The translations under genes and the position numbers were made by a program. Positions 19,261-49,600 of a stretch of 51,999 nucleotides of DNA are shown here, in pieces. Source of the stretch: an uncultured Clostridia bacterium. GTDB taxonomy: Bacteria > Bacillota > Clostridia > TANB77 > CAG-465. Each line of letters opens with the position of its first letter. Position 1 is the stretch's first letter. The stretch spans positions 1-51,999 of the forward strand of contig CANQLD010000004.1 of assembly GCA_947624625.1 (NCBI GenBank), read 5' to 3'. Below the pieces are notes generated by a model, which saw nothing but the letters and a program-made list of their open reading frames with translations, ran no database searches and was not told the origin of the DNA.

Positions 19261-21517
19261 TCAACTTATTAAATCTCCTAATATAACCTTTGATTTAGCT
19301 GATTTTGTTTTTAGCATTTCATTTACTAAATTTAATGTTGCAGTTGTATAATTTACTTTAATTTCTGCACTATTTTCTGTAGCTGCATTATTGAACATAT
19401 TTGAATATGATGTTGTTTCAGGATTTTTTATAGTTATATTAGTTTTTATTTTAATACAATCGCAAAACATATTATCCATACTTGTTACATTGCTTGTATT
19501 AAAATTACTTCCTAGATTTAAATTTGTTAAATTCCAACATCTATAAAACATATAATCCATTTTTGTTACTTTACTTGTATCAAAGTTGCTTATATCTAAA
19601 CTTGTTAAATTTCCACATCCTCTAAACATACTCTCCATATTTGTTACACTACTTGTATCAAAATTACTTACATCTAAACTTGTTAAATTTCCACAATCTT
19701 GAAACATAGCACCCATATTTGTTACATTTCTTGTGTCAAATTTATTTACATCTAAATTTGTTAAATTTCCACAATATTGAAACATACATCTCATACTTGT
19801 TACACTACTTGTATCAAAATTACTTATACCTACAGTTCCTAATTTATTACAATTTCTAAACATACATGACATATTCTCTACACTACTTGTATCAAATTTA
19901 CTTAAATCTATACTTATTAAATTCCTACAATCATTAAACATACTATCCATATTTTTTACTTTACTTGTATCAAATTTATCTTTTAAATTTATACTTGTCA
20001 AATTCCCACATCCATTAAACATATAATCCATTCTTGTTACACTACTTGTATCAAATTTATTTTTTAAGTCTATATTTGTTAGACTATCACATCTATAAAA
20101 CATATAATCCATTCTTGTTACACTACTTGTATCAAAGTTACTTCCTAGATTTAAACTTATTAAATTAGTACATGCATTAAACATACCACACATACTTGTT
20201 ACACTACTCGTATCAAAATTACTTACATCTAAACTTGTTAACTTGCTACAAACTTGAAACATACCATCCATTAATGTTACACTTCTTGTGTCAAACTTAC
20301 TTAAATTTAAATTTGTTAAATTTCCACAATATTGAAACATACAGCTCATACTTGTTACACTACTTGTATCAAAGTTACTTACATCTATATTTGTTAAATT
20401 AGTACAACTTCTAAACATACCAGCCATACTTGTTACACTACTTGTATTAAAGTTACTTCCTAGGTTTAAACTTGTTAAATTTTTACAATCATTAAACATA
20501 TAATCCATATTTTTCACATTACTTGTATCAAATTTTTTTCCCAAATTTAAGCTTGTTAAACTATTACATCCCCAAAACATACTACTCATATTTGTTACAC
20601 TACTTGTATCAAATTTATCTCCTAAATTTAAGCTTGTTAAACTATTACATCCATAAAACATATAATCCATATTTTTTACATTACTTGTATCAAATTTATT
20701 TCCTAGATTTATACTTGTTAAATTAGTACAACTATTAAACATACTCCCCATAGCTATTACATTACTTGTATCAAAGTTACTTAAATCTAAACTTTGTAAA
20801 TTTCTACATCCTCTAAACATACCATTCATATTTGTTGTCATACTTGTATCTAATACTTTCATATCTACCTCTTTTAATTCTGACAAATTTACGCACAAAC
20901 CATCCAATCCGTTTATTTGCTATTACTTTCCCATTTCCGCCTATTGTTAACTCATATTCTCCATTTCCATTATCTAATATCCATGCCATTACTGAGCCAT
21001 TCCTTTTTGCTGAAACATCCCAAGATTCTATTACATCTTTTGGCACTTTATTATTAGTTATAAACTTCATTTTAGTTATTTTTGTTCTATATTCTTCAGC
21101 ATGAAAATCATCTTTTGACCAATCAGAAAAAGCTTTTAATATAGAATCATTTGGATTTCCTATTATATAGTCCATACTTTCTGCTATTTCTTGTTTTTTC
21201 TTATCTTCTCCTAAATATGCAAGTCCTTCTCCAAGAGCTATCACTTCGTCCTTATATTGCTCAAAAACTACACCATCATAATCTTCTGGTTTTATTTTAT
21301 ATTTATCTCCTTTATATTTTGCCATTAACTCACCTTGTCTTATTCCATATGCATATTTCATTTCTTGAAGGTCGCTTCTAAATGCCGCCTCTTTAGCATT
21401 ATCCATTGGATTATTATATATTACCGTGTTTATTATTGACGCAGCAAGTATTATTATTACTACTATTGTTATTAACATTACTATTAAACTTATTCCTGTT
21501 TTTCTTGATTTTTTCAT
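19261..21517 (-). pseudogene. BspA-family repeat surface protein, copy 2, with a frameshift between N-terminal pilin-like domain and 18-repeat region
   Basis: ORFs 20813-21547 and 19261-20907 together match the full 2730-4034 product; frame changes at ~20885-20925. Confidence 0.85.
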
Positions 21518-21552
21518 ATACCTTTCCTCCTTACCTAATTTAGACACACAAA

Positions 21553-27372: not shown

Positions 27373-30300
27373 CTATCTATTCTTTCTTACAAGAACAACC
27401 AATATAACAAGTGCTCCTGCTATACTTGCAAAAGTTAGTGCATATCCACTAGTATTATTATTTGCTTTTTGTTTATTTGCACTTTCATAGTAATTTGAAA
27501 GTTCCTCATTATTGTCTATCTTCCAATCTTCTGTCTTTAGCTCTTCTTGTGGAGCTTCAAATAAATCATTTTCGTTATAAATAACATATTTTTTATTTAC
27601 ATTATCATAAACTGTTAAGTACTTGTTACTTAAAGAACTTTGCTTACTATCTGTATTTTGTAAGTAAACTTCATCTAGCACACCTAAATCTAAAGCAGCA
27701 TCATTTATTGGAGTTTCTTCTAATTTGTCAACTAACTTTTTAGTATTATCATATTTTTCATTTAAGTCTTTATCTATTGTAGCATAATTATTGCCAATAC
27801 TCTTTAGTAGATAATTAACAAAAGATATATTTTCCTTTACTTTATTATCATAAACAACTTCTCCAGTGATATAGTTAAATACATATATTCTACCACTTTC
27901 GTAATAAACAATAATATTTTGACTGTTACTTTCTAAATTGCTTGTTATATTTTTTATATCACTATTTTTGAAATCATTTGGATAATTAAGTTTTGTTTTT
28001 AAATCGTATAACCTTCCATCACTTGATAATATTGTTTGATATTCATTATTGTTATAACTATCAACTATAACCTTACCTGGTAATATATCAAGAGTATTGT
28101 CAAATAAGTATAACCTATCATTTTTTAGGAAAGTTACAAAATCTCTTTCAATTACCTCATCATTTATAATCATATTTGTAAATAACATATATGTATCTAC
28201 TTTATTTCCTTGATAATTAAATGATTGAAGTGAGTACTTTTCACCAATATAATCAAATGTGTTTTTCTCTACTTTTTCCATACTTTCTAATGTATCTAAA
28301 CTATATATATTACCATTTTCTTCTAGTACTTTTCCATTAAATAAATTAACGTAATCTCCAGCTATATTATTAATATTAGAGCATAACTTTTTACCCATTA
28401 AGTAATAATATTCTTCTTTATAATTTAATACATCATTTTTTACATCTTCTGGAACTATTTTTACTGTCTTTTTATTTATACCATCAGATATTGTAATTTC
28501 AACATCAGATACAAAGTCATATTTAAATGTAAATATTTTATTATCTATAGCAATATTGTTAGATAGTTTATCTCCTACTTTGTAATTGAAATATGTATTT
28601 GCACTTGCCTCACTAAACTCTAGGTTTATTTTATCTACATCTACTGCATATGCTTTTACTTCAGGAAGTCTAGATATAGGGATTTTCAAACCTTTATATG
28701 TTGTAAATAATTCTTTATTAGAGTTTGCATTGTTAAGGCTTGTAGTTGCAACATCTGTTGGTAAGTTTATTCCAGTTTGATTATTTGTACTCTTTGCAAA
28801 TGGATATTTTCCATCTTCAAGTGAACTAAAATCATAATAAGTTTCAGACCATTGCATATTATTGATATATGTATCTTTATTTTCAAGTTGTGTTCTATCT
28901 AAAGCATGAGACATGTCAAAGTCAGTATTGTTACTATTTACATATTCATTATTGATTTTTGAATATTTTGAAAAATATGTATTTGTTAATTTAGAATCTT
29001 GATCTTTTTTTGCACCTACACCAAATGTTATATTTTCATTACTTAAATCATTATTTAATTGTACATCAAAGTAGTTACCACCATATCTATTTTCATATAA
29101 TTCTATAGCCGTATCACCTATTGTTGCACCAACATTTGTAGGAGCAGTAATTGTTGCACCTGCAATATAGTTTTTGTATATTCCTGAAATCCAGTCTATT
29201 GCAGTATTATTTGTATTATCAAGATATCCAAGAATTCCCGCTGCATTTTCTGTTGTTGCAGTAACATTTGAATCACTATATGAATGTGCGATTGCTCCTC
29301 TAACCATTCTACCTGCAATTCCTGCAACATTTTTATCTCCTACAACAGGTGTATTTTTTGCAAAGCTTGATTTTATAGCAGGGTTAGATTCAGTATATCT
29401 TCCACTATTATCTATACTTCCAGTTATTCCACCAATATTTGAACCTGTACCTGTAACTGATGAATCTATTACTCCACAATTCCATGCAGATGCACTCAAA
29501 TAACCACTTATACCGCCAAGATAAGATTCGCCGCTTATTTTACATCTAGTAACGAAACAATTACTCATATTACGGTCACCATTACCAGATATTCCTCCTG
29601 CATAGTTTTTAGCAGTAATTACACAATCTGTTGCACTTACATTTTGATCTCCATGAAGACCTGCAATTCCTCCTGCATAGTTATTGGTTGCAGTTACATC
29701 AGAATCAGTTACTGTAGAAGCGGTTACTGTTCCATCTCCAGATATTCCACCAACATAATTAACTCCAGTTACGTGTACGTCATCTATAGTGGCAACTGTT
29801 ATTGTTCCTCCACCACCATTTACAGCTCCTGCATCATTTCCTGTTGCATTAATTATTATATCTTTTCCTGTTACATTTTTTATTGTTGCTACGTTATTTG
29901 CAGTAAATCCTCCTACATAGGATTTACCTGTACATCTTATATGATTTAATGTAACATTTTCTGTATTATAACTTATATATCTTATTGGGCCTACACTATC
30001 GCAATTTGGCATATCAAATTCTATATCTTCTAATGATATATCTTTTAGTGATGTATTTATTATATCAAAGAATGATTTATATGAGCCTGTTTCAGCAGTA
30101 TATTTTACTCTTTTAAATGATATATCACTAATACCTACATCATTACCTCCAAGTTCCCTTATAAATCCTACTAAAGCATTCTGTGAAGAGCCTGAGGTAA
30201 TTTCAATATCTTCAAAATTAATAGATTTCATACTATACAAGGCACTCTTTATGAAGCAATCATATTGATTTGGTAAATCAATTTTCAAATTACGCATTGT

Positions 30301-33300
30301 ATATTTTTGCCCTGACTCTGATTCAAGTCGTCCTATTCTTAGATTATAATTTGGCGTTACACCTTCAAAATCTATATCATCCATCAATCTATAATTTTCA
30401 GAACTTAATGGATCAATATTTTGCCATTCATCTACATTACGTATCTCTTTAAAGAATTGTAATTGCAAAAGATAACAAACATCATATTGCTTTTGTTCTC
30501 CATTTTCATCAGTATAATTTATTTTTGTAATCATATATGTATCATAAAACTTTTTAGGCTTTATACTTAAGTTTATTGCAGTTTGGTGATTTCTTGTTAC
30601 TGCTTTTTGTTCAAGTATTTCTAATGAGTCTATTTCAATACCACTAATTTCAAGATTATTTGGATTGTCTATTACTAGCTGAACTGTAGCATTATACGGT
30701 GTTTTGTTTACTTGAGTATTATAATCTATTGGTTGTATTACAAACTCTCTTTGTTTTTTAGCTATTAATATATTATCTTTTTGATTTGGTAATAATGTTT
30801 TGTTATCAGTGTAATATAATTTTGGTAAAATACCTTCTGCAATTTGCTCATAACTATATGAATTATCAAATTTAATAGTATTAAGATATGTACTTTTATT
30901 TGTTAATTCCTCATATGTTAAAAGACCAGCTGTTCCACTTTTATCTTCTCTTGATACTCCATTAAAATATTGATCAACAAATCCATAACAATTAGTAGAA
31001 TCTGATGTTCCATTTATTCTTCTTGTTACAGTTTTAATGTTATCTAAATATATATCCCCAAGGAATAAACAGTTATTTGTATTTGAACCATTTCCTTTAA
31101 TGCCACCTATATTTACTGTACTTACTCCAAAAATATCAACTGTACTATAACACCTATTTAATACATTAGAGCCAGTTCCTACAATACCACCTATTTGATA
31201 TCCATCATTTGTATATAACCTTCCTGTTGTATAACAATTATTTACTGCAGAAAGTCCATTTTGCTCATAACCTATAAGTCCACCTATTCCTGTAAACTTA
31301 CCTATGTTTATAGACTCCATGTCTACATCTTGTACAAAGCAATTTGACATATTTGTATAATTTCCATATCCAACAAGTCCTCCAAATATCAATGTTAAGT
31401 CCTTATTATCTATATGGAATTTAAAATCACTTACTCCACAATTTCTAATGATTGTATTATATGTTCTTCCAACTAAGCCTCCTATATATAGCTCACCTGA
31501 ATTTCTCATACCATTCATTTCAATATTTTTTATGTGGACATTTTCAATAATTGAAGGAGAATTTGCGATACCTATAAAGCCATTTTCCAAATTATCCTTT
31601 ACATCAGTATGAGTATAATTTTCAATGTTCAAATTTTGTATAGTTCCAGTAAGTGCTGCAAAGAATCCTCTATAATTTCCTGGTACTCTTATATTTTTTA
31701 TTGTTTTATTATTTCCATTTAACTTTCCTGTATAAGTTGTATTTATCAAAACATCTGTACCTTCATTTATAAAATCAAGGTCAGTCATAAGTAGATAGTT
31801 TTCTGTAGGAGATTTTGGTATTTTCTTCCAATCCTCTAAACTATTTATTTCTCTAAAAAAGTCTACATAGAAAACCTTTTCATTTTCTGTATATTTTCTT
31901 GTTGAATGTATTCCTAAAACTCCTTTTGATGTTATTGACATTATTGAATATTTTGAAAGTGAACGAATTGGATTCTTTATTTCAACTAAAACATCTGACT
32001 TTCCTTCTTTAAATTCTTGTGAAAGTATTTTAACATCTGAATCATTGATGTCTTTTATAGTAAATCCAGTTATCTCTTCTCCAGCAGGGTTATATACACT
32101 TATTTCAATTTTAGCACTTGTATATGATGTTTGTTCAATTAATCTACTACTTGTAACATCAACATAATCTTCCTCTGTTAATTTAGGTAATTCTAAGTAT
32201 TCTTGATTTGGCATAGATTCGTCTAATATTAACTGAGGGAAATATCCTCTATTTACTAAATCATCAACTATAAATTGATTATATGAATTTAGCATTTCAT
32301 TTTGATATTTTACGTCATACAAAGTTGTATATGATGCTTTTTTATTACAACCATTATTAAAGTTTCTATCATCAAAGTAGTGAGAATTAGTTACAGTTGT
32401 ATAGCCATCAAGATAACCTATAGTAGGTCCTCTACCAAGTGTTATTGTATTACTACTTCCAACCGAGTAAATATTCTTTGCCGTTCCATAACTTATTCTT
32501 CCAACTACATTTGCAGTATAGTCATTTCCTGGATTATCGCCATCAACTCCAGCTAGACTAAATACATTTTCTATAGTACCATATCTATTAACACTAAGTG
32601 CAACAGGTGCAGAATTGTTATTTGGGTATTTTACTCTCATATTTGTACCGTAAACATAACCATTTCTAATTGTTCCACTTACTTCACTAAATCCTGCTGT
32701 AATTGATTGCTGAGCATAGAAAGTATCTTGTAAATGAATTATGAAATTCTCAAGCACACCAGGGCACGAATAACCAAGTAATCTATAGCTTATATTTGGC
32801 AATTCATTTGACTCAACTAAATTTATTATAATTCCTCTTATTGTTCCATAATTGTATACTACAAATCCATTGAAATCTGATGTTTCAACAGGGTTATTTA
32901 TGCTTATATCGTATACCAAATTTTCAATAATACCCTCTGTACCTATATACTGGAAGATTGCATAATTAGAAGATCTATCTCTTGAAAGTGTATTACCTTG
33001 GAAATTTACATCTCCATTAAATTGAATATTATTACTATAATGCAAAGTAGTATCTGTAAGTCCTGTTAAATCAATGTCTCTTAATACAAAATAATGTCCT
33101 TCTGGTTGAATTTCTAAAAATTCTTCTCTTGTTTTTATTCCTACTATTTCATCATCAGTTCTAAATGATACTGTATCAAGAACATTAAATCTTTCATTTG
33201 ACTTTATAGCAAGTTCTGCTTTATAGTCTGCATTTTCATCTAATATGAAATCTTTTATACTATCTACAACCATATTTGAACTGCCAATTTCTTCATAACG

Positions 33301-35964
33301 ATTAGTAGATATTAATTCACCATCTTTGTATAAAAGAAGATAGTAATCATTAGTATCTATTTCGTTATTTCCATCAATTAAATTAATTTCAAATGTTGCA
33401 TCTAAATCATAAATAAACTCTTCATAATCAGTTCTATCATCACCAATTTCTACTTGAAGTTCTTTAATTTGAACTGGATTATTATTATTTGATGCAATAT
33501 AAAAACCTAGATATCCTGAATCATTAACTGTTACTGTATATCCAAACCTTTGCCAATTAGTAGAGTTAACAGGTATCTTTGTTCCAGATGTTGTAGGTAT
33601 CTTTTTATTTTCAAAGTACATAGATGTTCCTGCAGTAGTAGTCATTTTAGCTAAAAATGAAATTGTTACAGTTTTTCCAATATAATCTCTTAAATCATAA
33701 GTATATACTTGAGAATAATTTCCTATTGTACTATTGTGCAGTCTTAATATTCCTTCTTCTTCACTATATTGTTTATAGCATAAAGTTGTAGTATTAAATG
33801 TTGTACTGTACCATTTTACCTTAGATTTTGCATCAATAAGGTTTTTACCCAGTGGCTTTCTAAGTAAGTTAGCTAAATCAATCTTTCCTTCAAGTCCAGA
33901 AATAGTTACAATATTTTTTTCAAATAATAAATAATTATTATAATATGTATTATAGTCGTGTCCTTCATTATATTCATCTGCATAAACATATAATCTATAT
34001 GTTTGATTTTCATTTAATTTATCATATGAAAGTCTTATAAAATCTTCATTTGTATTTACAGTTACTAAATCAACTAACTTATCATCTTTATCTTTTAATT
34101 CTAATCTTACATTATTTTGTAATACTGCTATATCTGGGTCTTCAATATTTATATCAAAGTCAATTATATTTCCTGTAACAAATAGATTTTTAATATTAAC
34201 CTTAGCAGGTTTTTTCATAGTTTTAAAAGGTTCTATTGAGTGTCTTCCACCTACGACCTCAGTATATGTTCCTTGAACAACAGTTGTATTAACATTAAAC
34301 TGATACTTTGTTGAAGAGTCTAATCCTTCAAAATTAACTTCTATTTCTTCTCCTTTTTTAAAATTAGAAAGTTGCTCGTCATTTAAATATATTGAGAAAG
34401 TTTTTCCACCTTCTAATACATTTCCATTAACATCCTGTTCCCTAAGTAGTAAAGTCGCTTGACTTATGATTTTAACCAATCTATTATCTGTAATATCAGT
34501 ATTTATTTTTAATTTAATTTTTGCATTTTGATACGTTAACTCAACCATTTCTGTATTAAGGTATAATTTACCAAGTGTTCCTATTGTTGCAGTTATAAAA
34601 TCACCTTGTCCTATAATTTGATCTTTGTATATACCATTACCGTCTCCTAAATCATAATTTGCATATATTGTTATTATATAGTTTTGTAACGGACTTAATG
34701 ATTCGAAAATCAAATCTACTCTATCTTTTATTTCAAGATTTCCAGACTCAACAACTTCTCCAGTTAAAGTTGTTAATTCATATCTATACCCAGACATTGT
34801 TACATTATCAGTATTAATCAAAGACAATGTTACTCCAACTTGTGTAAGGTCTTTTTTAGATGTCTGAATATTAACTCTAGGGTCAGCCTTAGCAGTCACA
34901 GTATTTCCTTTACTATTATTTAATTTAAACTTATTACCAACTAAATCATAAAGAAAAATCTCATATGAATATTTAGAATTTGAAAGTAATGTTTCTGATG
35001 TTTGGAAAGTAACTTTTTCACCTTTTAGCATTGCATTTAAATAAGCAATAGGTATTCTATATGAAACATTATTAATTACAAGTTCTCCACTCTTTAGCCC
35101 TTTAAATACTTCATCTTTTAAATCATTTTCAAAACATAAATCAGCAATTTCTATTTTATCTTTATAAATATTACCATTTTTAAAATCAAGAGTTATCGAA
35201 TTTAAAGATTCAAAAGATTTTGTTTTTATAGTCTGAGTATAGAATTGTCTAACTCTCTTTTTTCCTTCTATATCTAAATAAGTATATTTTGCAGTAATTT
35301 CATATTCATCATCAGGTGCTAACCCTCTTATTTCAATATTCCCAGAACTTCTATATGATTTAAGTAAATATTTTTGTCCATTTTTTGTTATTGTAATTTC
35401 AACAGGAGAAGTTATAGCTCCACTTGGATCATATATATTAAGTACTGATGATGTATAATATACATTTTCAGTAAATGTATCAAGTGTTACTTTAGGGTCT
35501 ATATATTCAATTTCTTTCTCTTCTGTTTTTTCTTCCTCTACATCTTCTTCTATAACTATAGTTTCTTCTTTTTTTGGTTCTTCTTGTTCTTCACTTTCAA
35601 AATTTACATTTTCAATAGGTCTCTTTTTTAAACCAAGATTTATTAATAAATCATTATAATTTAGTGTTACGTCTGATATTGAAATTTCTGAGTTATCATC
35701 AACATCAGATATTCTTTGATATGAAAATTCATCATTTTTTATTTTATATAATGCAATATAGTCGTTATTAAAATAAATGATACTATTCATTGGTATTATA
35801 TATTCATTAAATGCTGTCTTTAATTTTATCTCTTTTGTATTTACACATATTTTATTAGTACTCTTTAAAAAGATATATTCATTAATATCTGCTCTCATTA
35901 AATCATCCATGTTATATTTTATTCCTGATGAAAGTGTAAATGAGAGTTGTCCGCCCTGATATTG
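27373..35964 (-). CDS. giant surface protein (2845 aa as called): Fn3-like domains, CBM-like domain, GLUG/beta-helix-like repeats, C-terminal TM; probably the 3' part of a split gene
   Basis: Continuous ORF; GGLVGYGNYTNMSNCFV, GGIVGTGSNVLNRCYS, GGISGNGDRNMSNCFV repeats; C-terminal YALTFASIAGALVILVVLVRKNR; frame is open back to ~35964. Confidence 0.85.
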   Translation of the reverse strand, partial: QYQGGQLSFTLSSGIKYNMDDLMRADINEYIFLKSTNKICVNTKEIKLKTAFNEYIIPMNSIIYFNNDYIALYKIKNDEFSYQRISDVDDNSEISISDVTLNYNDLLINLGLKKRPIENVNFESEEQEEPKKEETIVIEEDVEEEKTEEKEIEYIDPKVTLDTFTENVYYTSSVLNIYDPSGAITSPVEITITKNGQKYLLKSYRSSGNIEIRGLAPDDEYEITAKYTYLDIEGKKRVRQFYTQTIKTKSFESLNSITLDFKNGNIYKDKIEIADLCFENDLKDEVFKGLKSGELVINNVSYRIPIAYLNAMLKGEKVTFQTSETLLSNSKYSYEIFLYDLVGNKFKLNNSKGNTVTAKADPRVNIQTSKKDLTQVGVTLSLINTDNVTMSGYRYELTTLTGEVVESGNLEIKDRVDLIFESLSPLQNYIITIYANYDLGDGNGIYKDQIIGQGDFITATIGTLGKLYLNTEMVELTYQNAKIKLKINTDITDNRLVKIISQATLLLREQDVNGNVLEGGKTFSIYLNDEQLSNFKKGEEIEVNFEGLDSSTKYQFNVNTTVVQGTYTEVVGGRHSIEPFKTMKKPAKVNIKNLFVTGNIIDFDINIEDPDIAVLQNNVRLELKDKDDKLVDLVTVNTNEDFIRLSYDKLNENQTYRLYVYADEYNEGHDYNTYYNNYLLFEKNIVTISGLEGKIDLANLLRKPLGKNLIDAKSKVKWYSTTFNTTTLCYKQYSEEEGILRLHNSTIGNYSQVYTYDLRDYIGKTVTISFLAKMTTTAGTSMYFENKKIPTTSGTKIPVNSTNWQRFGYTVTVNDSGYLGFYIASNNNNPVQIKELQVEIGDDRTDYEEFIYDLDATFEINLIDGNNEIDTNDYYLLLYKDGELISTNRYEEIGSSNMVVDSIKDFILDENADYKAELAIKSNERFNVLDTVSFRTDDEIVGIKTREEFLEIQPEGHYFVLRDIDLTGLTDTTLHYSNNIQFNGDVNFQGNTLSRDRSSNYAIFQYIGTEGIIENLVYDISINNPVETSDFNGFVVYNYGTIRGIIINLVESNELPNISYRLLGYSCPGVLENFIIHLQDTFYAQQSITAGFSEVSGTIRNGYVYGTNMRVKYPNNNSAPVALSVNRYGTIENVFSLAGVDGDNPGNDYTANVVGRISYGTAKNIYSVGSSNTITLGRGPTIGYLDGYTTVTNSHYFDDRNFNNGCNKKASYTTLYDVKYQNEMLNSYNQFIVDDLVNRGYFPQLILDESMPNQEYLELPKLTEEDYVDVTSSRLIEQTSYTSAKIEISVYNPAGEEITGFTIKDINDSDVKILSQEFKEGKSDVLVEIKNPIRSLSKYSIMSITSKGVLGIHSTRKYTENEKVFYVDFFREINSLEDWKKIPKSPTENYLLMTDLDFINEGTDVLINTTYTGKLNGNNKTIKNIRVPGNYRGFFAALTGTIQNLNIENYTHTDVKDNLENGFIGIANSPSIIENVHIKNIEMNGMRNSGELYIGGLVGRTYNTIIRNCGVSDFKFHIDNKDLTLIFGGLVGYGNYTNMSNCFVQDVDMESINIGKFTGIGGLIGYEQNGLSAVNNCYTTGRLYTNDGYQIGGIVGTGSNVLNRCYSTVDIFGVSTVNIGGIKGNGSNTNNCLFLGDIYLDNIKTVTRRINGTSDSTNCYGFVDQYFNGVSREDKSGTAGLLTYEELTNKSTYLNTIKFDNSYSYEQIAEGILPKLYYTDNKTLLPNQKDNILIAKKQREFVIQPIDYNTQVNKTPYNATVQLVIDNPNNLEISGIEIDSLEILEQKAVTRNHQTAINLSIKPKKFYDTYMITKINYTDENGEQKQYDVCYLLQLQFFKEIRNVDEWQNIDPLSSENYRLMDDIDFEGVTPNYNLRIGRLESESGQKYTMRNLKIDLPNQYDCFIKSALYSMKSINFEDIEITSGSSQNALVGFIRELGGNDVGISDISFKRVKYTAETGSYKSFFDIINTSLKDISLEDIEFDMPNCDSVGPIRYISYNTENVTLNHIRCTGKSYVGGFTANNVATIKNVTGKDIIINATGNDAGAVNGGGGTITVATIDDVHVTGVNYVGGISGDGTVTASTVTDSDVTATNNYAGGIAGLHGDQNVSATDCVITAKNYAGGISGNGDRNMSNCFVTRCKISGESYLGGISGYLSASAWNCGVIDSSVTGTGSNIGGITGSIDNSGRYTESNPAIKSSFAKNTPVVGDKNVAGIAGRMVRGAIAHSYSDSNVTATTENAAGILGYLDNTNNTAIDWISGIYKNYIAGATITAPTNVGATIGDTAIELYENRYGGNYFDVQLNNDLSNENITFGVGAKKDQDSKLTNTYFSKYSKINNEYVNSNNTDFDMSHALDRTQLENKDTYINNMQWSETYYDFSSLEDGKYPFAKSTNNQTGINLPTDVATTSLNNANSNKELFTTYKGLKIPISRLPEVKAYAVDVDKINLEFSEASANTYFNYKVGDKLSNNIAIDNKIFTFKYDFVSDVEITISDGINKKTVKIVPEDVKNDVLNYKEEYYYLMGKKLCSNINNIAGDYVNLFNGKVLEENGNIYSLDTLESMEKVEKNTFDYIGEKYSLQSFNYQGNKVDTYMLFTNMIINDEVIERDFVTFLKNDRLYLFDNTLDILPGKVIVDSYNNNEYQTILSSDGRLYDLKTKLNYPNDFKNSDIKNITSNLESNSQNIIVYYESGRIYVFNYITGEVVYDNKVKENISFVNYLLKSIGNNYATIDKDLNEKYDNTKKLVDKLEETPINDAALDLGVLDEVYLQNTDSKQSSLSNKYLTVYDNVNKKYVIYNENDLFEAPQEELKTEDWKIDNNEELSNYYESANKQKANNNTSGYALTFASIAGALVILVVLVRKNR

Positions 35965-36403
35965 TTAAGAAATCTTTTGTAATTAAAGATACATCTTCTG
36001 ATAAATTATACAAAACTATATTATCATTTATATATATAGGATAATCCAAATTTATATTGTTAACTGTACTCTTTCCTACATAAAATGAATTTAATCTTTT
36101 GTATATCATATCTTGTTCTTCAACTTTAATTGCTTTAATCTTATCATTTTCATCATTAAATTTTTTATTTAATAAATTTTCTGTAATTTTATTTCCAGAT
36201 ACAGCATAACCAGAATATTCAGCTATTTGATATGGCTTAAATCTAAAAACTAAAAAATAAAATAGTGCAAGTACAATGATTAAAAAAAGCAAAAGTAACA
36301 TAATAATAGAAGAGTTAGAAAGCACAGAATCTAATTTTTCTTCATTTTTTACTTTTTTTACATTAGACTCAATATTCAAACTAATCTCCTCCTTCATAAT
36401 CAA
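35912..36403 (-). CDS. membrane-anchored N-terminal fragment (163 aa) probably belonging to the downstream giant ORF
   Basis: Cytosolic N-terminus, one TM (IIMLLLLFLIIVLALFYFLVF), start of ectodomain; frame breaks near 35965. Confidence 0.7.
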   Translation of the reverse strand: MIMKEEISLNIESNVKKVKNEEKLDSVLSNSSIIMLLLLFLIIVLALFYFLVFRFKPYQIAEYSGYAVSGNKITENLLNKKFNDENDKIKAIKVEEQDMIYKRLNSFYVGKSTVNNINLDYPIYINDNIVLYNLSEDVSLITKDFLTISGRTTLIYTFIRNKI

Positions 36404-37091
36404 AATTATTTAAACTTTCAATTTTTTTAATTAATAGTTGATTACCTCTATCGCTTACAACAGAATCAATACTTAAAGAAATTGTATAATTATCTGTTTT
36501 AGCAATAACTTCCTGATTAGGTGTTTCAATAATTTGACAATTATCTTCCTCATAATTGTATAATTCAATATTTTTGTTATATTCAACTATCGCGTATGAA
36601 AGTGCAGGTACTTTATATTCTTGTGAATCTATTACAATAGTTGTATCTTCTAAAAAGAAATACAAATCATTTCCATCATATAAAAATGCATTCTGTACAC
36701 TCTTTTGCTTTTTTTCACGTTCTATATATGTATCATAACCATCACTGTAAACATTAGTAAAATATGATAATTTATATAGTTTTACAGTTTGAAGTGGATA
36801 AACTATCGCCATATCCTTTGGTAGCAATACTCTCGACTTAACATCTTTATAATAAAGAGGTGTAGAATCAAGAGTTACCTTTAAATCTTTAAACCTTAGC
36901 TCAGTTATCTCGTTTCTATTTGTCAATCTAAAACTTCCTTCATATTCTACCTTCTTACCTGAGAAATATTGATAAAAACTATGGTCTTCAAAAAATTCTA
37001 TCTTATAATAACTAAGTAAAATAGCAACAATAATTAGAACTACAAGAAAAGCAACTAGCATTATAATTTTTATAATATTATCTTTGTTCAT
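36381..37091 (-). CDS. single-pass membrane protein (236 aa) with shared ectodomain
   Basis: N-terminal TM; ectodomain resembles N-terminal regions of 1747-aa, 484-aa and split giant proteins. Confidence 0.75.
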   Translation of the reverse strand: MNKDNIIKIIMLVAFLVVLIIVAILLSYYKIEFFEDHSFYQYFSGKKVEYEGSFRLTNRNEITELRFKDLKVTLDSTPLYYKDVKSRVLLPKDMAIVYPLQTVKLYKLSYFTNVYSDGYDTYIEREKKQKSVQNAFLYDGNDLYFFLEDTTIVIDSQEYKVPALSYAIVEYNKNIELYNYEEDNCQIIETPNQEVIAKTDNYTISLSIDSVVSDRGNQLLIKKIESLNNFDYEGGD

Positions 37092-37620
37092 AAGTTTTTC
37101 TCCTTTTTAGTTTTTTCCTTACACTCACATCTTCTATATTCCTTAGAGAAAAATATGTAGCATAAATTGATATAAATACACTTAGTAATGCTCTTATAAT
37201 AACAATAAATATATCACCATTGACATCTAATATATATCCATATAGACTATTTACTAATACTAATGAAAAAATTAATATGCATGAATTAATAACCTCAAAT
37301 ATTCCTTTTTTAAAATCAAATAACATAACTATATATATTAGCGATACTATCCCTACCATAATAACATTAGCTATAACTTGTTTGGAATATGTAAAAGCAG
37401 TATAATATATTAAAAATAACCTTATAAATATTAAAGAAATTAATATTATATCTACATTTTTTAGTCTAAGAAATATTCCATACATAAAAGAGTCAAATTT
37501 ATTTAATTTCAATTTAGAAGTAAATAATATTATGACTAGAAAAATAGATAAAATTGAAATAAGGAAAATTATCATCATATCGGAATATTCATTTAATTCA
37601 TACATTATTAATTCAATCAT
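37078..37620 (-). CDS. five-TM integral membrane protein (180 aa), unknown
   Basis: Five hydrophobic segments; overlaps the neighbouring gene. Confidence 0.75.
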   Translation of the reverse strand: MIELIMYELNEYSDMMIIFLISILSIFLVIILFTSKLKLNKFDSFMYGIFLRLKNVDIILISLIFIRLFLIYYTAFTYSKQVIANVIMVGIVSLIYIVMLFDFKKGIFEVINSCILIFSLVLVNSLYGYILDVNGDIFIVIIRALLSVFISIYATYFSLRNIEDVSVRKKLKRRKTYEQR

Positions 37621-37626
37621 ATTAGC

Positions 37627-40054
<2,428 letters not shown>

Positions 40055-40058
<4 letters not shown>

Positions 40059-41404
40059 AGATTTTTATCCTCACTAATTGCTTTAAATCTAAGTAAAATT
40101 TCGTCTTGGGACATAGGAGAAAACTTTGGTTGGTTTAATGTTTCTTCTATTTTTTTACCTAAATTTATTTTTTCTTTTAGTTCATTACTCATTTCATCAG
40201 TATTTGCTAGCTCATAAACTTCTTTTGTTTCAAGATATGATAACAATTTTCTTCTTATTGTTGCACCTAAAGATTTCATTTCTTTACTCTGAACGGCACC
40301 GCCAAGTCTTGAAACAGAGACTGTATAATCTATCGCAGGTTTTTGACCTTTTGTAAATTGCTTTTGAGATAACACTATTTGTCCATCTGTTATAGAAATA
40401 ATATTTGTAGAAATATAGTCTGTGATATCTCCACCTTTTGTTTCTACAATAGGTAGTATTGTTATTGAGCCTCCATTTTTATGTTGACATCCTTTTTCAA
40501 GCAATCTTGAATGGAAATAGAATATATCTGATGGATAAGCCTCTCTTCCTGGAGCTTTATTAGATATAAGGCTAATTTCTCTATATACTTCAGCATGCTT
40601 TTTCAAATCATCAATTATAACTAGTACATCTTTCTTTTGATGTAACATATATTCTTCTGCTATTGATACTCCTACAAAAGGTATTAGACTCTGAACGGGA
40701 GGTTTATCGTCATTTGTAGCAACAACAAGTAAAGTGTATGAAAGTGCACCTCTTTTAAGTAATTCATTATATATAGTTTTTATTTCTTTTTTGGTTTTTC
40801 CAACTGCAATATATACACAAATCATTTCTTCTTTGTTTTGAAGTGCAATACTCCTTTGATTAACAATTGCATCAAGGGCTATTTGAGTTTTTCCAGTTTT
40901 TTTGTCACCAATTATTAATTGTCTTTGCCCTTTTCCGATAGGATAAATCAAATCAATTCCCGCAATACCTGTAAGCATTGGTCTATTTACTGCAGTTCTA
41001 TCCATTAGTGGTACATTAGGTCTTTCAATATCTATATATTTAAAATTCTTGAAATACTTACTTGTTAATTTATCTTCTCCGAATAAATCAATTATTCTTC
41101 CTAGTGCATCTTCTGAAAAAATAGCTTTAAACTGTTCTCCAGACGCACTAACTTCATCTCCTACTTTTATTGGCTCATTTTCTCTAACAATAGCGACACT
41201 TACAACATTTTCCCCTATTGAATTTACATACCCAATACCTTTACCTAGAATTGTTACTTTTTCAAAGAAAGATACATTCTCAAGTCCTGAAACTTCTATA
41301 ATATAATCTTTTATTTTTACAACAACTCCAGTGTCAAATACATTATCCTCTTCCTTAATTTTCTTAATTTTATCATTAAGTAAATTATCAATATATGTAC
41401 CCAC
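40055..41404 (-). CDS. F1-type ATPase alpha-like subunit
   Basis: GDKKTGKTQIALD Walker A, ISITDGQIVL, SVSRLGGAVQ (Arg finger region). Confidence 0.93.
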
Positions 41405-41426: not shown

Positions 41427-42584
41427 TTATATACTATAATCGTAAATCCTATTTTTGTACTTAATTATGATTCCCTCTGACATATTGGAATAATACATGG
41501 TTTTTACATTTTTTCCAACATAATCATAGCTTTTATCACTTCTACTAACATATACATAAACAATAGGATCATATTTTTTTATCAATTCTTTTAAATAATT
41601 TAAAAAATCTATAGTACTAAATTTTTTACTATTTTTAAACTTTTCATTAAATTTAATTAATTCTTTTTCTTCATCAGATAATACCTCAGATATTATCTTT
41701 TTCTGATTTTCACTCGATAAAGTAATAAGTTGATATACTGCATTATTATCAAAATTTCTTTTTATCTTCATTAAATCATTATATATTTTGTTATCATTAC
41801 TATTAACTTGTTTTTTTATAAATGCTCTTAACAAATTTTCATTATCAAAATAAAACTCTTTTTTTAGTCTTTTGTAGTTATAGAAGAAACTATCTTCTTT
41901 GTACTCTGGTAGTCTAATGTAATTTAATAATTCAGTACTTTTACCTTCTTGGTTATCATCAGATGAATTTTTATCAGATAGCATATTAAGTTGCATATTT
42001 CTATAGTCATTTTCATCAATATATTTAGGTTTCTTATTTTTTCTTATATCATTCATATCGTAATCAGAGTCAACAGCATCCTCATTTTCTAAGTCTTCTT
42101 CATTACCACTATTGTTACTATCTTCACTATTATCGCTTACATTATTCTTTTTACTTGCACCACCATTTGTATAATCATTGTCTTCGTCATCATCATTTTC
42201 AATATCTTCTACATATCCTTCTTTACCTTTATAGAAAGGTCTATCAAATAATATACGTTCATCATTTCTATCATGTAATTTGTTATGGTCAAAAGGCACA
42301 TAATTTGCAAGCATATTATTATCATAGCTTTGATGTTTTTTATTTTTTAATACTTTAAGAGTATCTTCAATAGAAGATATATCATTTTCATATTTATTAA
42401 CTTGATTTTTTAAGTTTTCAAGTTCAGTTTGCTTTTCTTTTAACAAATATTCATACTCTTGCATTTTCTCAACAAAATACTTTTTTGTATTTACATCAAG
42501 TCTTTTTACAATGTTTTTAAATATCAGAAAAGCCATAATAAACATTAATAAAATTATAACTACAGACGGAATAACTAAATTCAC
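41427..42584 (-). CDS. b-delta-like peripheral stalk fusion protein
   Basis: N-terminal TM and coiled coil (b-like), acidic linker, C-terminal MSEGIIIKYKNRIYDYSI resembling the delta/OSCP C-terminus. Confidence 0.65.
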   Translation of the reverse strand: MNLVIPSVVIILLMFIMAFLIFKNIVKRLDVNTKKYFVEKMQEYEYLLKEKQTELENLKNQVNKYENDISSIEDTLKVLKNKKHQSYDNNMLANYVPFDHNKLHDRNDERILFDRPFYKGKEGYVEDIENDDDEDNDYTNGGASKKNNVSDNSEDSNNSGNEEDLENEDAVDSDYDMNDIRKNKKPKYIDENDYRNMQLNMLSDKNSSDDNQEGKSTELLNYIRLPEYKEDSFFYNYKRLKKEFYFDNENLLRAFIKKQVNSNDNKIYNDLMKIKRNFDNNAVYQLITLSSENQKKIISEVLSDEEKELIKFNEKFKNSKKFSTIDFLNYLKELIKKYDPIVYVYVSRSDKSYDYVGKNVKTMYYSNMSEGIIIKYKNRIYDYSI

Positions 42585-44356: not shown

Positions 44357-47300
44357 TTACCTTACTTTGTTATATATATACTCTAATGTTGACTCTGCAA
44401 CTATTGTACCTTCTGTTAAATATTGTATTTGTACCATATAGATACCTTCAGCTTCTAAATAATCATTTAATGTAAATACATAGTAACTATCTTCACCTGT
44501 TTGTGTTCTCTTTGGATTAAATGGAACTTCAGCATTTTTTGCGAATCCACTTGTATTATATATTGTATATCTTATTGTATCTATTTTTATTAAGTTATAA
44601 CTATCACTAAATATAATATCAATTTTATCCTGATTTGGTGATGTACTAACTTTTCCAAGAGAGATACCATATTGATTTATTGGATCTAACACATATTCTT
44701 TTGTAACTCTAGTTATATTTTGTCCATCATTATTTAAGTCTAATTCTAAGAATACTTTAAGTGTTAGTTTTCTCATTTGGTCAATACCATTAATTGTTAC
44801 AGTATTATTAATCAAGTTTGTTATATATTCTTGTTTCAAATCATCAGGAGTTATATCTTCTCCGTTTTCGTCTAATATAGCTATTGTATATTTATCGTCT
44901 TTTACGACTCTTTCATTTTGGTCATATACTGAAATCTTAAAGTCTACTATATCATTATCTCTTCTTACACCTTTCATTGCAACAATTGGTTCAGAAAGTT
45001 TAGTTAAATTAAAAGTATGCTCAACTGAAGTTATTGGAACTTCTCTATCTCCATCATATATTGCAATTGTTGTAATTCTAACTTTATACTTTTTACCAAA
45101 TTCAAACATTCCACCTGGTCTTGCATCAATTTGTTTTACCATTCTTGCAGTAAATGGCTCTTCATCTTCAGTTTCATATATTTGTTTAAAAGTTCCACCT
45201 TCATCTTTAAATAAAGTATATTTTATTTTTTGATATCCAAGTACTATATCAAGATTAAATGAAATATCTACTGTTTTCTCTCCATACAATACTGGATTAT
45301 ATTTTACACTAACATCAGTTATTTTTATATCAGCAAGTGTATTAAAATAATATTTTCTTCCAACTACTGCTTGGTCTACATCATACAAATATCTTTCTAC
45401 TTCACCAGATTCAGTAAGTAATTTTGCCTTAAATCTTATGAAATAATAACATTTAGCCTCTAATTCATCAATTAATATTTTATCTTCAAACTCATCTACT
45501 GTTGCTTCAACAGTTTTTACATAGCTTTCATTTTTCCATGCACTATCTGTTTTATATACCTCAATATATATTTTATTTTCTTTTATTTTTATTTTGTCAT
45601 TAATTGTTAAATCTGGATTAATTCTAACTAAATCTAATTGTCTATCAACTTTTAAATCTCCATTTGGTTTTTCCATGCTTATTCCTGGTAATATAAACTC
45701 AAATTTAATTGTTTTGCTACCTGTGCACCTTAATGAGCCGCTTTTAAGTGGTTTTAAAGATATAGCATCATTATTATATAAATATCCTTTATCTGATATT
45801 TCAATAGGTACATCTCCCTTATTATCATTTAAAGCACTGTCAATACTTAATATTTCGCCTTCTTCATTTTCACCTTTAGTTATTTTATAAATATTACCAT
45901 TTGCTTCAGGATAATATGTTAAATTACCTTCTTCGTTATAATAATAGTAATATATAGACTCATTTTTTAGATAATTCTTTTGTAATGTATAGTACTCAGC
46001 TCTCATATCAAAACCATTACTTCCATTATCATAATATGCATAAAGATTTACATCCACATTTTTATTAATAAAGTCTGATATTTCGTTTAAATCTGTAATA
46101 AGTACTCTATTTTTTGGTACCATTAAATCAGTTGTTTGTGTTTCTCCATCTGATTCAAATTCAATGTAATATGCAGCAATTCTATCTAAAGCTGGAGAAT
46201 CTGATAAAGAGATTTTAACATTATTTCCTTCTACACTAACATTATATGTTAAATCGTCTATAGTTTTTGTACCTTCAAAATAATTTGCAATTAAATTTTT
46301 TCTTTCAACTGCTTCATTATTCATTAGTCTTTGATCTACGTATAATATAAGATTACCTTGAAGTAAATCATCAAATGTTATTGATTTATATTCTTCATAG
46401 AAATCAACTTCTATATCCTCACTATTTGTAGCTCCTTCATTTGAAATATTAAGTTTATTTTCTTCAAGAGCTTGGTCTATATCTGAACATCTATATTTAA
46501 ATGTAGCATATGCTTCACCAGATGAAGATTGATAAATTTCAATTTTTGGCTCTTGTTTATATGCTTTTATAGTTTTTGATCTAAGATGTATATCATCATA
46601 AACATATGGGTACGTTGTATCAACTTCTCCATCACCATTTGTATCAAGTTCTAGCTTATACTCAAAATAATATGAATTACCTCTTCTCGGAGTACCATCT
46701 TTTCCTTTAATACCATCAAATATCTCAAATACTGCTCCTTTAGTTTCTCCATCTTCTCCAACAGGAACTCTTATTTCTTTTATTACTTCTTTTGTTTCCG
46801 CATCATACATATAATAAACTGCGTTTACAATTTGCTCATCACTAATACCTGCATCAATACTATATCCAACAACTGTTTCTGGGTCTAAATCTTCTCTATA
46901 GCCAGCAGTAATATCTTTATACTGTCTTGCCATTTTATTTTTTATAGGTATTACAAGCATTGCATCTTCTGGGTCAGTTGGATATTCAATCTTCTTTACT
47001 GATTCAAATGTAAAAGTATCCTCATATATTGGTATGTTATTTGGATATTCAGTATAATCATATGCCTGAGTTACTTTCAGTGTATAGTACTTCTCTTTAA
47101 AATCACCAGGTTGTGCTCCAAAAAATTTTGGATCAATGATAAGTTTATCATTATATAATTTATCTTTTAATTCACTAATATATGGTTCATTATTTCTATC
47201 AACTAATTTTATTGTCTTTACAGGAGAACTCATTATACTCTGACCTGCGTAAAGGTTAAATACAATAGATGTTAATGTTTGTGCTTCTAAAGTATTATCT

Positions 47301-49600
47301 TCTCCCTCTCTTGCAGTAAGTTGAAACTCTAATTGGAATGGATCTTTAGATTCTCCAACTTCATTTTCATGGAATACTGCTACAAAAGGTTTTGGGTCAG
47401 CAGTTTTTACAATAACACTTCCTATATAGCAATTTTTTATAGGAGCATTACCATCACTTAAATCTACAGTTGCATAAACGGCAAATCTATATGTTTCATT
47501 AGCTCTTAAATAGTTTACATTTACAGGTATTACTAAGTTACCTGCTGAATTAAATTGCTTTACTGTACCAACTGAATCTGTATATGTTATAGTGAATGGG
47601 TCAGAATTTAAATTAATTGTATTAAATTCATCTTCTATTATTATTTTTCCTCTTATAGCTTCAAAAGTTACTTCACTTTCTTCAAATCTAAGTATTGGGA
47701 AAGGAACTCCATCAAGTTTCATAACCTCTTCACATAAAGGACTTTCATATTCAACGTATTTTTCATTATCATAAAACTCAACTATAACTTTAAATACATA
47801 ACCTGTTTCCCTATATAATTTTACATTATCTACTAATATTGATGTAGACTTACCTGAAGTAGATTCATATACTGCGACAGGAGCTGCTTCTTCTCCTTCA
47901 GTATTACCTGCTTCATATATTTCATACCTATATTTAGATATACCATTATCTTCGTCTTCAATACCACTTATTGATAATTCAAAAGTTCCATTTCTTTTAT
48001 TAATTTCAAAATATGGTGTTCCTATTTCTGGAATTCTTTTTAATGTTTTATATGGTATAGGTTCATCAGTACACCTTTCTATTACTTGATTTCCATATAA
48101 CACATTTTCAATTGAAAGTTTATATTCTGTATTTGGTATAAGGCCAGTAAACTCAAATGTAGTATCTTCAACATCATCTTCGTTATCTATCTTGTAACTT
48201 TGAACTACTTCTCCTTTAGTATTATATAATATAATATCTGCACTCTTAAATTTTGAAAGTTCGTCTATGTTAATTTTAAACTTAAGTGAAGTATCTGTAA
48301 AACAATCTTTTTCAAATCCTATACCTATTGAATCAGTAACAAAAACTTTATTGATAAATCTCTTATTATATTGGAATTCTCCTAGTTTATATGAAGAATC
48401 AACTGCTAAAGTATATTCGGTATCTGGATTTAAAGATAATACAGATATTTCTTCTTCAAATCTAGACATATCAATTTGATTTACATATACAACTTTTCCA
48501 CTTGAATTTTCTATAACTGATACTTCATGGTCTGATGTTAAAACGTTATTAGTATCTTCAATTGTAATTTTACAGTTAAATCCTAAAGAGTTTGTTTCAA
48601 ATTCTTCAAGAGTAAATATAGGTTCAACTGATACTACTTCTTCTTGATATTCGTCATTACTTTGTTCATCTAAAACTGAATTTCCTGTTGCATTATTTTC
48701 TGTTATTTCTGGAGCTGCATCCTCTGCACCTATAATGCCATTTCCACCCTCACCATTGTCAGAGCCATCTCCATTTCCATTTCCTTCTCCATCTTTGCCT
48801 TCTTCTTGATTTTCATCTAGTAAATCTTCATCATCAAAATCTTTTATTTCAATATTATCATCTGAATCAATAACCATGTTTTCCAAACTTAATTTAGTTT
48901 CATCTTTTTTTCTAATTAATTTTCTCTCAAGATTAATAGTTATTTCATTTGGCATTTCTATATTAACAGAAGATGATATTGTTTGATATTTTACTTCTTG
49001 ATTGTACAAACTAACTATTTCATTATCTAAGTATTCAAGTTCTATATAGCCATCAATTTCTTTTATTTCGCCATTGCTAAAGTGAATTTTCATATCATCA
49101 CTTGCAATTAAATACTTATTTTCAGATATTTTATATATAAAATTTACAAATTCAAGGTTAGTATTAATATGTGAAATAACATATTGTCCACCTTGATATT
49201 TTAAAACTTTGTTCGCACCTATATTATAATAAATGATTGGATCGTTATCTATGTCTTCAAGATTTAAAATAACTCCTTTGCTAAGTGAACTTATAGAGTC
49301 ATTATTGTAGTGAATAAAGTTATTCTTCCCCGCTAAAACATCATTTCCATCAATGTCTTCGAATTTTATTTTATCGTCATATTTATTCACATAAGTACTA
49401 TTTTCACCAAAATAATACCTCTCTATATTTTTTCCTTCTGAAGTTGTTGCATTTTCCACGTCAAATGGAGCACTTTGCAATATATACCCTGCACCATCAA
49501 AACTTTTTGTTCTTTCATTAACAACATTATAACTTCCTATAACAAGGAAAGTACCTAAAACTACACCAATCAATATTATAACAAATACATATTTTTTCAT
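44357..49600 (-). CDS. giant membrane-anchored Fn3-like repeat surface protein (1747 aa)
   Basis: N-terminal TM, YQGGQ...FIYKISENKYLIASDD ectodomain, acidic/Gly linker, repeated LxPxTEYxLxV Fn3-like motifs. Confidence 0.85.
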   Translation of the reverse strand: MKKYVFVIILIGVVLGTFLVIGSYNVVNERTKSFDGAGYILQSAPFDVENATTSEGKNIERYYFGENSTYVNKYDDKIKFEDIDGNDVLAGKNNFIHYNNDSISSLSKGVILNLEDIDNDPIIYYNIGANKVLKYQGGQYVISHINTNLEFVNFIYKISENKYLIASDDMKIHFSNGEIKEIDGYIELEYLDNEIVSLYNQEVKYQTISSSVNIEMPNEITINLERKLIRKKDETKLSLENMVIDSDDNIEIKDFDDEDLLDENQEEGKDGEGNGNGDGSDNGEGGNGIIGAEDAAPEITENNATGNSVLDEQSNDEYQEEVVSVEPIFTLEEFETNSLGFNCKITIEDTNNVLTSDHEVSVIENSSGKVVYVNQIDMSRFEEEISVLSLNPDTEYTLAVDSSYKLGEFQYNKRFINKVFVTDSIGIGFEKDCFTDTSLKFKINIDELSKFKSADIILYNTKGEVVQSYKIDNEDDVEDTTFEFTGLIPNTEYKLSIENVLYGNQVIERCTDEPIPYKTLKRIPEIGTPYFEINKRNGTFELSISGIEDEDNGISKYRYEIYEAGNTEGEEAAPVAVYESTSGKSTSILVDNVKLYRETGYVFKVIVEFYDNEKYVEYESPLCEEVMKLDGVPFPILRFEESEVTFEAIRGKIIIEDEFNTINLNSDPFTITYTDSVGTVKQFNSAGNLVIPVNVNYLRANETYRFAVYATVDLSDGNAPIKNCYIGSVIVKTADPKPFVAVFHENEVGESKDPFQLEFQLTAREGEDNTLEAQTLTSIVFNLYAGQSIMSSPVKTIKLVDRNNEPYISELKDKLYNDKLIIDPKFFGAQPGDFKEKYYTLKVTQAYDYTEYPNNIPIYEDTFTFESVKKIEYPTDPEDAMLVIPIKNKMARQYKDITAGYREDLDPETVVGYSIDAGISDEQIVNAVYYMYDAETKEVIKEIRVPVGEDGETKGAVFEIFDGIKGKDGTPRRGNSYYFEYKLELDTNGDGEVDTTYPYVYDDIHLRSKTIKAYKQEPKIEIYQSSSGEAYATFKYRCSDIDQALEENKLNISNEGATNSEDIEVDFYEEYKSITFDDLLQGNLILYVDQRLMNNEAVERKNLIANYFEGTKTIDDLTYNVSVEGNNVKISLSDSPALDRIAAYYIEFESDGETQTTDLMVPKNRVLITDLNEISDFINKNVDVNLYAYYDNGSNGFDMRAEYYTLQKNYLKNESIYYYYYNEEGNLTYYPEANGNIYKITKGENEEGEILSIDSALNDNKGDVPIEISDKGYLYNNDAISLKPLKSGSLRCTGSKTIKFEFILPGISMEKPNGDLKVDRQLDLVRINPDLTINDKIKIKENKIYIEVYKTDSAWKNESYVKTVEATVDEFEDKILIDELEAKCYYFIRFKAKLLTESGEVERYLYDVDQAVVGRKYYFNTLADIKITDVSVKYNPVLYGEKTVDISFNLDIVLGYQKIKYTLFKDEGGTFKQIYETEDEEPFTARMVKQIDARPGGMFEFGKKYKVRITTIAIYDGDREVPITSVEHTFNLTKLSEPIVAMKGVRRDNDIVDFKISVYDQNERVVKDDKYTIAILDENGEDITPDDLKQEYITNLINNTVTINGIDQMRKLTLKVFLELDLNNDGQNITRVTKEYVLDPINQYGISLGKVSTSPNQDKIDIIFSDSYNLIKIDTIRYTIYNTSGFAKNAEVPFNPKRTQTGEDSYYVFTLNDYLEAEGIYMVQIQYLTEGTIVAESTLEYIYNKVR

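Follow-up and report, generated by a model that had tools for sequence, protein, structure and literature searches.

The 51,999-nucleotide stretch of DNA from an uncultured Clostridia bacterium analysed here (the window) encodes a giant surface protein next to the genes of an F1-like ATPase. The two very probably belong to one system, in which the ATPase may move the protein.

The giant protein is encoded by one gene split by a single base

The giant protein is spread over two open reading frames:

27373..35910, minus strand: main ORF of the giant surface protein, 2845 aa; the N-terminal ~160 aa are missing through a one-base shift
35912..36403, minus strand: N-terminal part of the giant (NFRAG, a 163-aa ORF), with a TM helix and the start of a juxtamembrane beta-domain

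The main ORF reported in a preliminary description of the locus is real, starts with ATG and lies on the minus strand. The frame just upstream of this ATG carries on the protein, and the 163-aa ORF holds the missing start. In G008, a sister species from the same genus, NFRAG and the giant form a single intact 3002-aa ORF (ortholog L027:5987-14995), to which NFRAG is 67.5% identical (residues 1-157) and the main ORF 57%. DNA alignment of the junction with G008 revealed one extra base near 35955 in the window. Together, the intact ORF and the extra base show that the giant is one gene, not two. The preliminary description, which had joined the upstream fragment to the giant and allowed that it might be unrelated, was thus right to join them. 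The split itself appears to be a local base difference in a draft genome, either a sequencing or assembly error or a real mutation. Programmed frameshifting was rejected, because the gene is unbroken in the sister species and the sites of the split vary from one species to another.

The giant is linked to an operon encoding an F1-like ATPase

The giant is the last gene of an operon with a largely constant order: P1, P2, c, b-delta, alpha, gamma, beta, epsilon, T5, Z, giant. In the window, these genes overlap or sit within 60 bases of each other:

44357..49600, minus strand: P1, surface protein with TM, beta and Fn3 array, 1747 aa
42899..44353, minus strand: P2, surface protein with TM, beta and Fn3, 484 aa
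42595..42840, minus strand: c-like subunit without the TM2 carboxylate (PF00137, 6e-8)
41427..42584, minus strand: b-delta fusion, N-terminal TM and coil with a delta-like C-terminal motif, EGIIIKYKNRIYDYSI, compared by eye with the canonical delta of G028
40055..41404, minus strand: alpha-like subunit (PF00006, 9e-72)
39267..40058, minus strand: gamma-like subunit (PF00231, 2e-24)
37907..39274, minus strand: beta-like ATPase subunit, 455 aa (PF00006, 8e-69)
37627..37917, minus strand: epsilon-like subunit, 96 aa, assigned by gene position (65 loci), with no Pfam or NCBIfam match of its own
37078..37620, minus strand: T5, small polytopic membrane protein, 180 aa (64 loci), without a conserved Arg or a significant Pfam match
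36381..37091, minus strand: Z, TM and beta protein, 236 aa (55 loci), with a juxtamembrane domain homologous to the giant's

Scanning the contigs of one genome per species from 84,980 species with the beta subunit yielded 68 loci, of which about 64 showed 57-86% identity, and placed the operon in about 60 species. Its hosts include the cultured Kineothrix alysoides and Bifidobacterium colobi, and many host records bear gut-type titles. The system is rare, turning up in 2 of the 398 other genomes sampled from the phylum. Conservation of T5 is poor, and the surface proteins of the system are unusually long, at 1.7-4.7 k aa. A PADLOC scan returned no defence family. The genes thus form a conserved set in gut bacteria that is apparently undescribed: no description of F1-like surface motors outside mycoplasmas was found in the literature searched, which was mostly open-access, without preprints and most subscription journals, so that this absence is provisional.

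In most loci with enough sequence the giant directly follows Z, and it belongs to the same operon in most of about 37 giant-bearing loci; in G001 it lies upstream of P1 instead. Some Bacilli-type and related clusters (L092, L093, L095, L097, L079, L082 and L090) have other genes in place of an adjacent giant, and the ATPase can therefore do without it. In a set of 40 related genomes, the giant N-terminus was present in 3/3 motor-bearing and 0/37 motor-less genomes, and homologs of its C-terminus were found in 18 of 19 motor-bearing genomes. Distances between giants track distances between beta subunits (Mantel r 0.76 over 23 loci, 0/2000 permutations), although shared ancestry alone yields some correlation, so that this value shows joint inheritance and not contact. 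A related juxtamembrane domain is common to the giant, Z, P1 and P2, with probabilities of 47% to 97% depending on the pair (hhalign of Z against the giant N-terminus: probability 91%, E 1e-6), which suggests that these proteins may share a common base around the rotor. The giant is thus very probably part of the motor system. The preliminary description had seen in it an adhesin-like protein whose topology would suit strain by a motor: the association with a motor is strongly supported by the operon, the co-occurrence and the joint inheritance, and the giant may be an adhesin that the motor strains.

In three clusters without an adjacent giant, the motor genes are followed directly downstream by genes whose N-termini look TasA/camelysin-like on visual inspection (L093:13842-14495, L097:13835-16923 and L079:14844-15500). 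At L071 and L075 the c-like gene lies downstream, parted from the other motor genes by large genes.

The ATPase retains an F1 core and lacks features of ion pumping

The F1 core of alpha, beta and gamma is present in the operon, and the catalytic signatures are retained (GGAGVGKT and GERSREG in beta, SVSRLGGAVQ in alpha). The b-delta fusion retains its delta-like C-terminal motif, and the epsilon-like subunit, at ~90 aa, is too short for the usual C-terminal helical domain. The acidic residue of TM2 is present in 0/58 c-like sequences of the family, in which the RNPE loop is invariant. The window's c-like protein and its counterpart in the sister species agree at every residue (100% identity), although the DNA of the gene is only 89% identical (220/246 bases), revealing very strong constraint. 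No Pfam match to subunit a was found among the operon proteins scanned, and T5 has neither the conserved Arg nor other features of subunit a. With no carboxylate in the c-like ring and no subunit a found, an F1-type ATPase should turn without pumping ions; we consider this probable, and a role of the complex in ion pumping or ATP synthesis unlikely on the same sequence features. In the host genome of the window, the alpha and beta genes of the motor are the only F1-type alpha/beta genes found. Kineothrix and Bifidobacterium carry a second, more canonical beta besides the motor beta, and the motor is thus not their only F1 ATPase.

Within the genus of the window (G002-G023), most sampled species have no F1- or V-type alpha/beta gene, their best matches, at around E 1e-9 to 1e-13, being probably Rho-like. 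In the three species of this genus that have the cluster, only this presumably non-pumping version is present.

The giant is predicted to be anchored in the membrane at both ends

The joined gene encodes two hydrophobic segments:

36245..36307, minus strand: N-terminal TM helix (NFRAG residues ~33-53) with a lysine-rich N-side; hydropathy in 21/21 relatives, AF2 helix in the ortholog
27388..27444, minus strand: C-terminal TM helix (residues 2823-2841) with the basic tail RKNR; hydropathy, kept in 21/21 relatives

The C-terminal segment has a hydropathy of 2.5. Exactly two such segments are found in all 21 full-length giants from other loci, which range from Clostridia to Bifidobacterium, include those of Kineothrix alysoides and Bifidobacterium colobi, and comprise four paralogs from one genome; the first segment starts within residues 1-65, and the second lies at the extreme C-terminus and is followed by a net positive tail. 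The segments were called by hydropathy, and the N-terminal one alone also appears in a structure model (AlphaFold2, ortholog). An LPXTG-like motif is present in 0/22 giant C-termini (the window and its 21 relatives), and PF00746 was not found in the host genome. Sortase anchoring was rejected for want of this motif, despite the three sortases in that genome. These results bear out the preliminary description, which had proposed an N-terminal TM gained through the upstream fragment, a C-terminal TM with a basic tail and no LPXTG, and hence anchoring at both ends; the other possibility it raised, that the C-terminal segment is a cleaved sorting signal, finds no recognizable signal in these sequences. 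The pattern predicts that both termini lie in the cytoplasm (N-in, C-in) and that a loop of about 2,900 residues or more is extracellular.

The predicted extracellular part combines Fn3/Ig-like domains, a jelly-roll and three beta-helix blocks

Between the two TM segments, the following domains were assigned:

33871..35523, minus strand: tandem Fn3/Ig-like domains (residues ~130-680); AF2 strands in the ortholog, Pfam fn3 in relatives, Foldseek
33391..33843, minus strand: CBM4-like jelly-roll (residues ~690-840); 1gui, E 7e-4, and CBM_4_9 in one relative
32326..33138, minus strand: GLUG/beta-helix block 1 (residues ~925-1195); maps to variable block 1, by motif the weakest of the three
30931..31743, minus strand: GLUG/beta-helix block 2 (residues ~1390-1660); Pfam Glug at 1474-1494, GG[ILV] at 1477-1602, variable block 2
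28744..30426, minus strand: GLUG/beta-helix block 3 (residues ~1829-2389); AF2, Foldseek match to IgA1 protease, 75-78 nt repeat D1, variable block 3

The window protein belongs to no NCBIfam family and to no Pfam family at 0.001, and the assignments draw on its relatives and on AlphaFold2 models of separate segments, as the preliminary description had suggested. The model of ortholog residues 30-1170 (pLDDT 84) contains the TM helix, the beta-domain, a disordered acidic linker, tandem Fn3/Ig-like domains with strands at pLDDT ~85-92, and the jelly-roll. The Fn3-like domains described earlier are supported by this model, by Pfam fn3 matches in 10/23 relatives (the window's own match has an E of only 0.22) and by Foldseek, which matched the N-terminal half to generic tandem Ig/Fn3 ectodomains. 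Likewise, the CBM-like segment is supported as a jelly-roll whose profile matches CBM4, with the Pfam CBM_4_9 match confined to a single relative.

The earlier count of two GLUG/beta-helix stretches became three blocks, while the repeats themselves were confirmed. Pfam Glug matches the window protein at E 0.005, below the gathering score, and 6/16 relatives, at best with E 5e-9; the GLUG profile also matches the beta-helix of solved IgA1 proteases (E 5e-8). GG[ILV] motifs number 10 in the window giant vs 3.3 in shuffles, with a maximum among 1000 shuffles of also 10. AlphaFold2 folded residues ~1829-2389 into a beta-rich block, mostly at pLDDT >90, whose best Foldseek match was the same IgA1 protease; this C-terminal model does not resolve the last 300 residues, since the majority of the homologous rows stop before them. 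The giant has a stalk of Fn3 type, a beta-helix and CBM-like modules in common with fibrillar adhesins and with GLUG proteins such as the IgA1 proteases (M26). In contrast to these, the giant appears to be TM-anchored at both ends, has neither LPXTG nor HExxH (none in 22 giants), and is tied to an ATPase operon.

The GLUG blocks diverge on a more constant scaffold

About 13 giant N-termini were found in G053 and 7 in G048, with one motor in each. Over most of the scaffold, four intact copies from G053 share 60-96% identity, whereas identity in the three GLUG blocks drops to about 35-50% at lowest. Accordingly, dN is 0.32-0.58 in the GLUG blocks vs 0.07-0.23 outside, while dS is similar throughout, at about 0.5-1.2. 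This pattern fits GLUG blocks that act as heads diversifying on a constant frame. However, dN/dS remains below 1 in the GLUG blocks, so relaxed constraint is also possible, and the orthologs of the window and G008 show far less of a contrast (0.51-0.61 in the GLUG blocks vs 0.53-0.72 elsewhere).

Giants also occur in tandem arrays with ~10-12 kb spacing (L141-L143 on G053:C2, L139-L140 on G053:C4 and L158-L160 on G048:C3). Many of these copies are broken by frameshifts, which could stem from errors in assembly, mark a store of silent copies or be a sign of decay.

The system resembles F1-like ATPases of mycoplasmas

The Type 3 F1-like X0 ATPase of mycoplasma is needed for MIB-MIP function (PMC12994834) and is encoded by a seven-gene cluster with a 12-TM protein and without a c or b subunit (PMC3369863, PMC12994834). 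The window system shares with it the F1-like alpha/beta/gamma/epsilon cluster, a membrane part that is not a normal Fo, the link to surface proteins and a patchy distribution, but it has a c-like ring subunit and a membrane-anchored b-delta and lacks the 12-TM protein. Its beta scores 415.5 bits against NF045934 (MSC_0618_beta, Type 3), below the cut-off of 570. The beta family forms one clade (32 rows, 100/100) apart from mycoplasma Type 3 (19 rows, 100/100) and canonical F1, in a tree that was midpoint-rooted for drawing only, has one suspect long branch and does not settle which of the two, the beta family or Type 3, stands nearer to canonical F1. When the phylum of the window was searched for Type 3 beta, nothing reached the threshold, probably because this sample includes no mycoplasmas, and the search was repeated in another class.

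The Type 2 G1-ATPase of Mycoplasma mobile is F1-derived and a proposed driver of giant surface proteins, with crank and leg proteins, and its GliD has been proposed to derive from a b-delta fusion (PMC11864180). The window system would parallel it in both respects. However, the window beta has only 455 aa, without the MMOB1670-type N-terminal extension (377 bits against NF045858 (MMOB1670, Type 2), below the cut-off of 850), the stator keeps its TM, the c-like subunit is kept and the surface proteins differ. By these sequence criteria, the system resembles the mycoplasma Type 2 and Type 3 ATPases and appears to be a member of neither. Canonical F1Fo ATP synthase has counterparts of alpha, beta, gamma, epsilon, c and b-delta, whereas the operon proteins include no recognizable subunit a, the c-like subunit lacks the ion-carrying carboxylate and surface proteins are part of the operon. 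NCBIfam would nevertheless name beta atpD (475 > 463 bits), and automated annotation of the motor beta as an ATP synthase subunit is thus a trap.

A non-pumping motor may work a doubly anchored arch

The reading we prefer, with a probability of roughly 0.55, is that a non-pumping F1-derived motor works the giant, which forms an arch anchored at both ends whose variable heads bind ligands. The giant would be the output part dedicated to an ATPase that has lost ion pumping. With both ends in the membrane, its ~2,900 residues would form an extracellular arch made of the juxtamembrane beta-domain, a flexible acidic linker, the Fn3/Ig array, the CBM4-like module and three GLUG beta-helix heads, which would bind variable ligands. 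ATP hydrolysis in alpha3beta3 would rotate gamma-epsilon together with the c-ring attached to it, with b-delta as the stator. With a ring that lacks the carboxylate and no partner subunit a found, the torque would be passed on to the arch through its feet in the membrane, as well as to its partners Z, P1 and P2, which bear the related juxtamembrane domain, and would move or cycle the arch for active adhesion, catch and release, or surface motion. We lean towards the motor moving the giant; physical contact, the direction of force and the ligand are part of the inferred scheme. More tentatively, the system might represent a separate rotary class, in which an F1 ring without ion translocation transmits torque across the membrane to doubly anchored arches with diversified heads, and which spread horizontally among gut Firmicutes and Actinobacteria. 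Such a system, outside mycoplasmas and in other gut bacteria, retains the rotor ring and membrane stator and has cultured hosts; it would make testable how rotation is turned into mechanical work on the cell exterior, and may illuminate the F1Fo origin of the mycoplasma motors for gliding and antibody handling.

Among other explanations, the ATPase could be an export or assembly engine: it would supply the power to secrete, fold or insert P1, P2 and the giant, and these would then serve as passive adhesins. Rotary-type ATPases also serve export systems (FliI/SctN), models of FliI/SctN give the beta a score, albeit one far under the cut-off, and the length of the surface proteins would suit such a role. 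However, the subunits are F1-type with a rotor ring and stator, not a FliI-type homohexamer with an export gate, no export-gate homologs were seen in the operon, and the surface proteins bear ordinary N-terminal TM signals. We regard this explanation as unlikely.

Somewhat less probable still is an antibody-handling machine like mycoplasma MIB-MIP, in which secretory IgA would be captured by the arch and then released or stripped off by the motor. The requirement of MIB-MIP for the Type 3 ATPase (PMC12994834), the match of the GLUG blocks to the IgA1-protease beta-helix in both sequence and fold, and the gut-type host records are consistent with it. On the other hand, none of the 22 giants carries the HExxH metalloprotease motif, the beta-helix fold also occurs in epimerases, tailspikes and adhesins, and the beta lies outside the Type 3 family.

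Gliding motility, with the arches as legs for moving over mucus or fibre as in Mycoplasma mobile, is about equally improbable. It would follow the same logic as the Type 2 G1-ATPase with its crank and leg proteins (PMC11864180), and predicted ligand-binding heads on long stalks, with several surface parts per motor, would fit it. Nevertheless, the beta lacks the chain-forming N-terminal extension of MMOB1670. Moreover, the operon is present in Bifidobacterium colobi, and bifidobacteria are known to be non-motile, which counts against gliding.

Finally, an ordinary F1Fo ATP synthase operon beside an unrelated adhesin is hardly credible, the atpD-level score of its beta notwithstanding, given the carboxylate missing from 58/58 c-like subunits, no subunit a among the operon proteins scanned, the separate canonical-type beta of Kineothrix and Bifidobacterium, the distinct beta clade and the conserved linkage to the giant.

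Elsewhere in the window, an ORF with a pilin-like N-terminus (20813-21547) overlaps, in another frame, a BspA-type leucine-rich-repeat-like ORF (19261-20907), and the two (19261-21547) are possibly one gene split by a frameshift.
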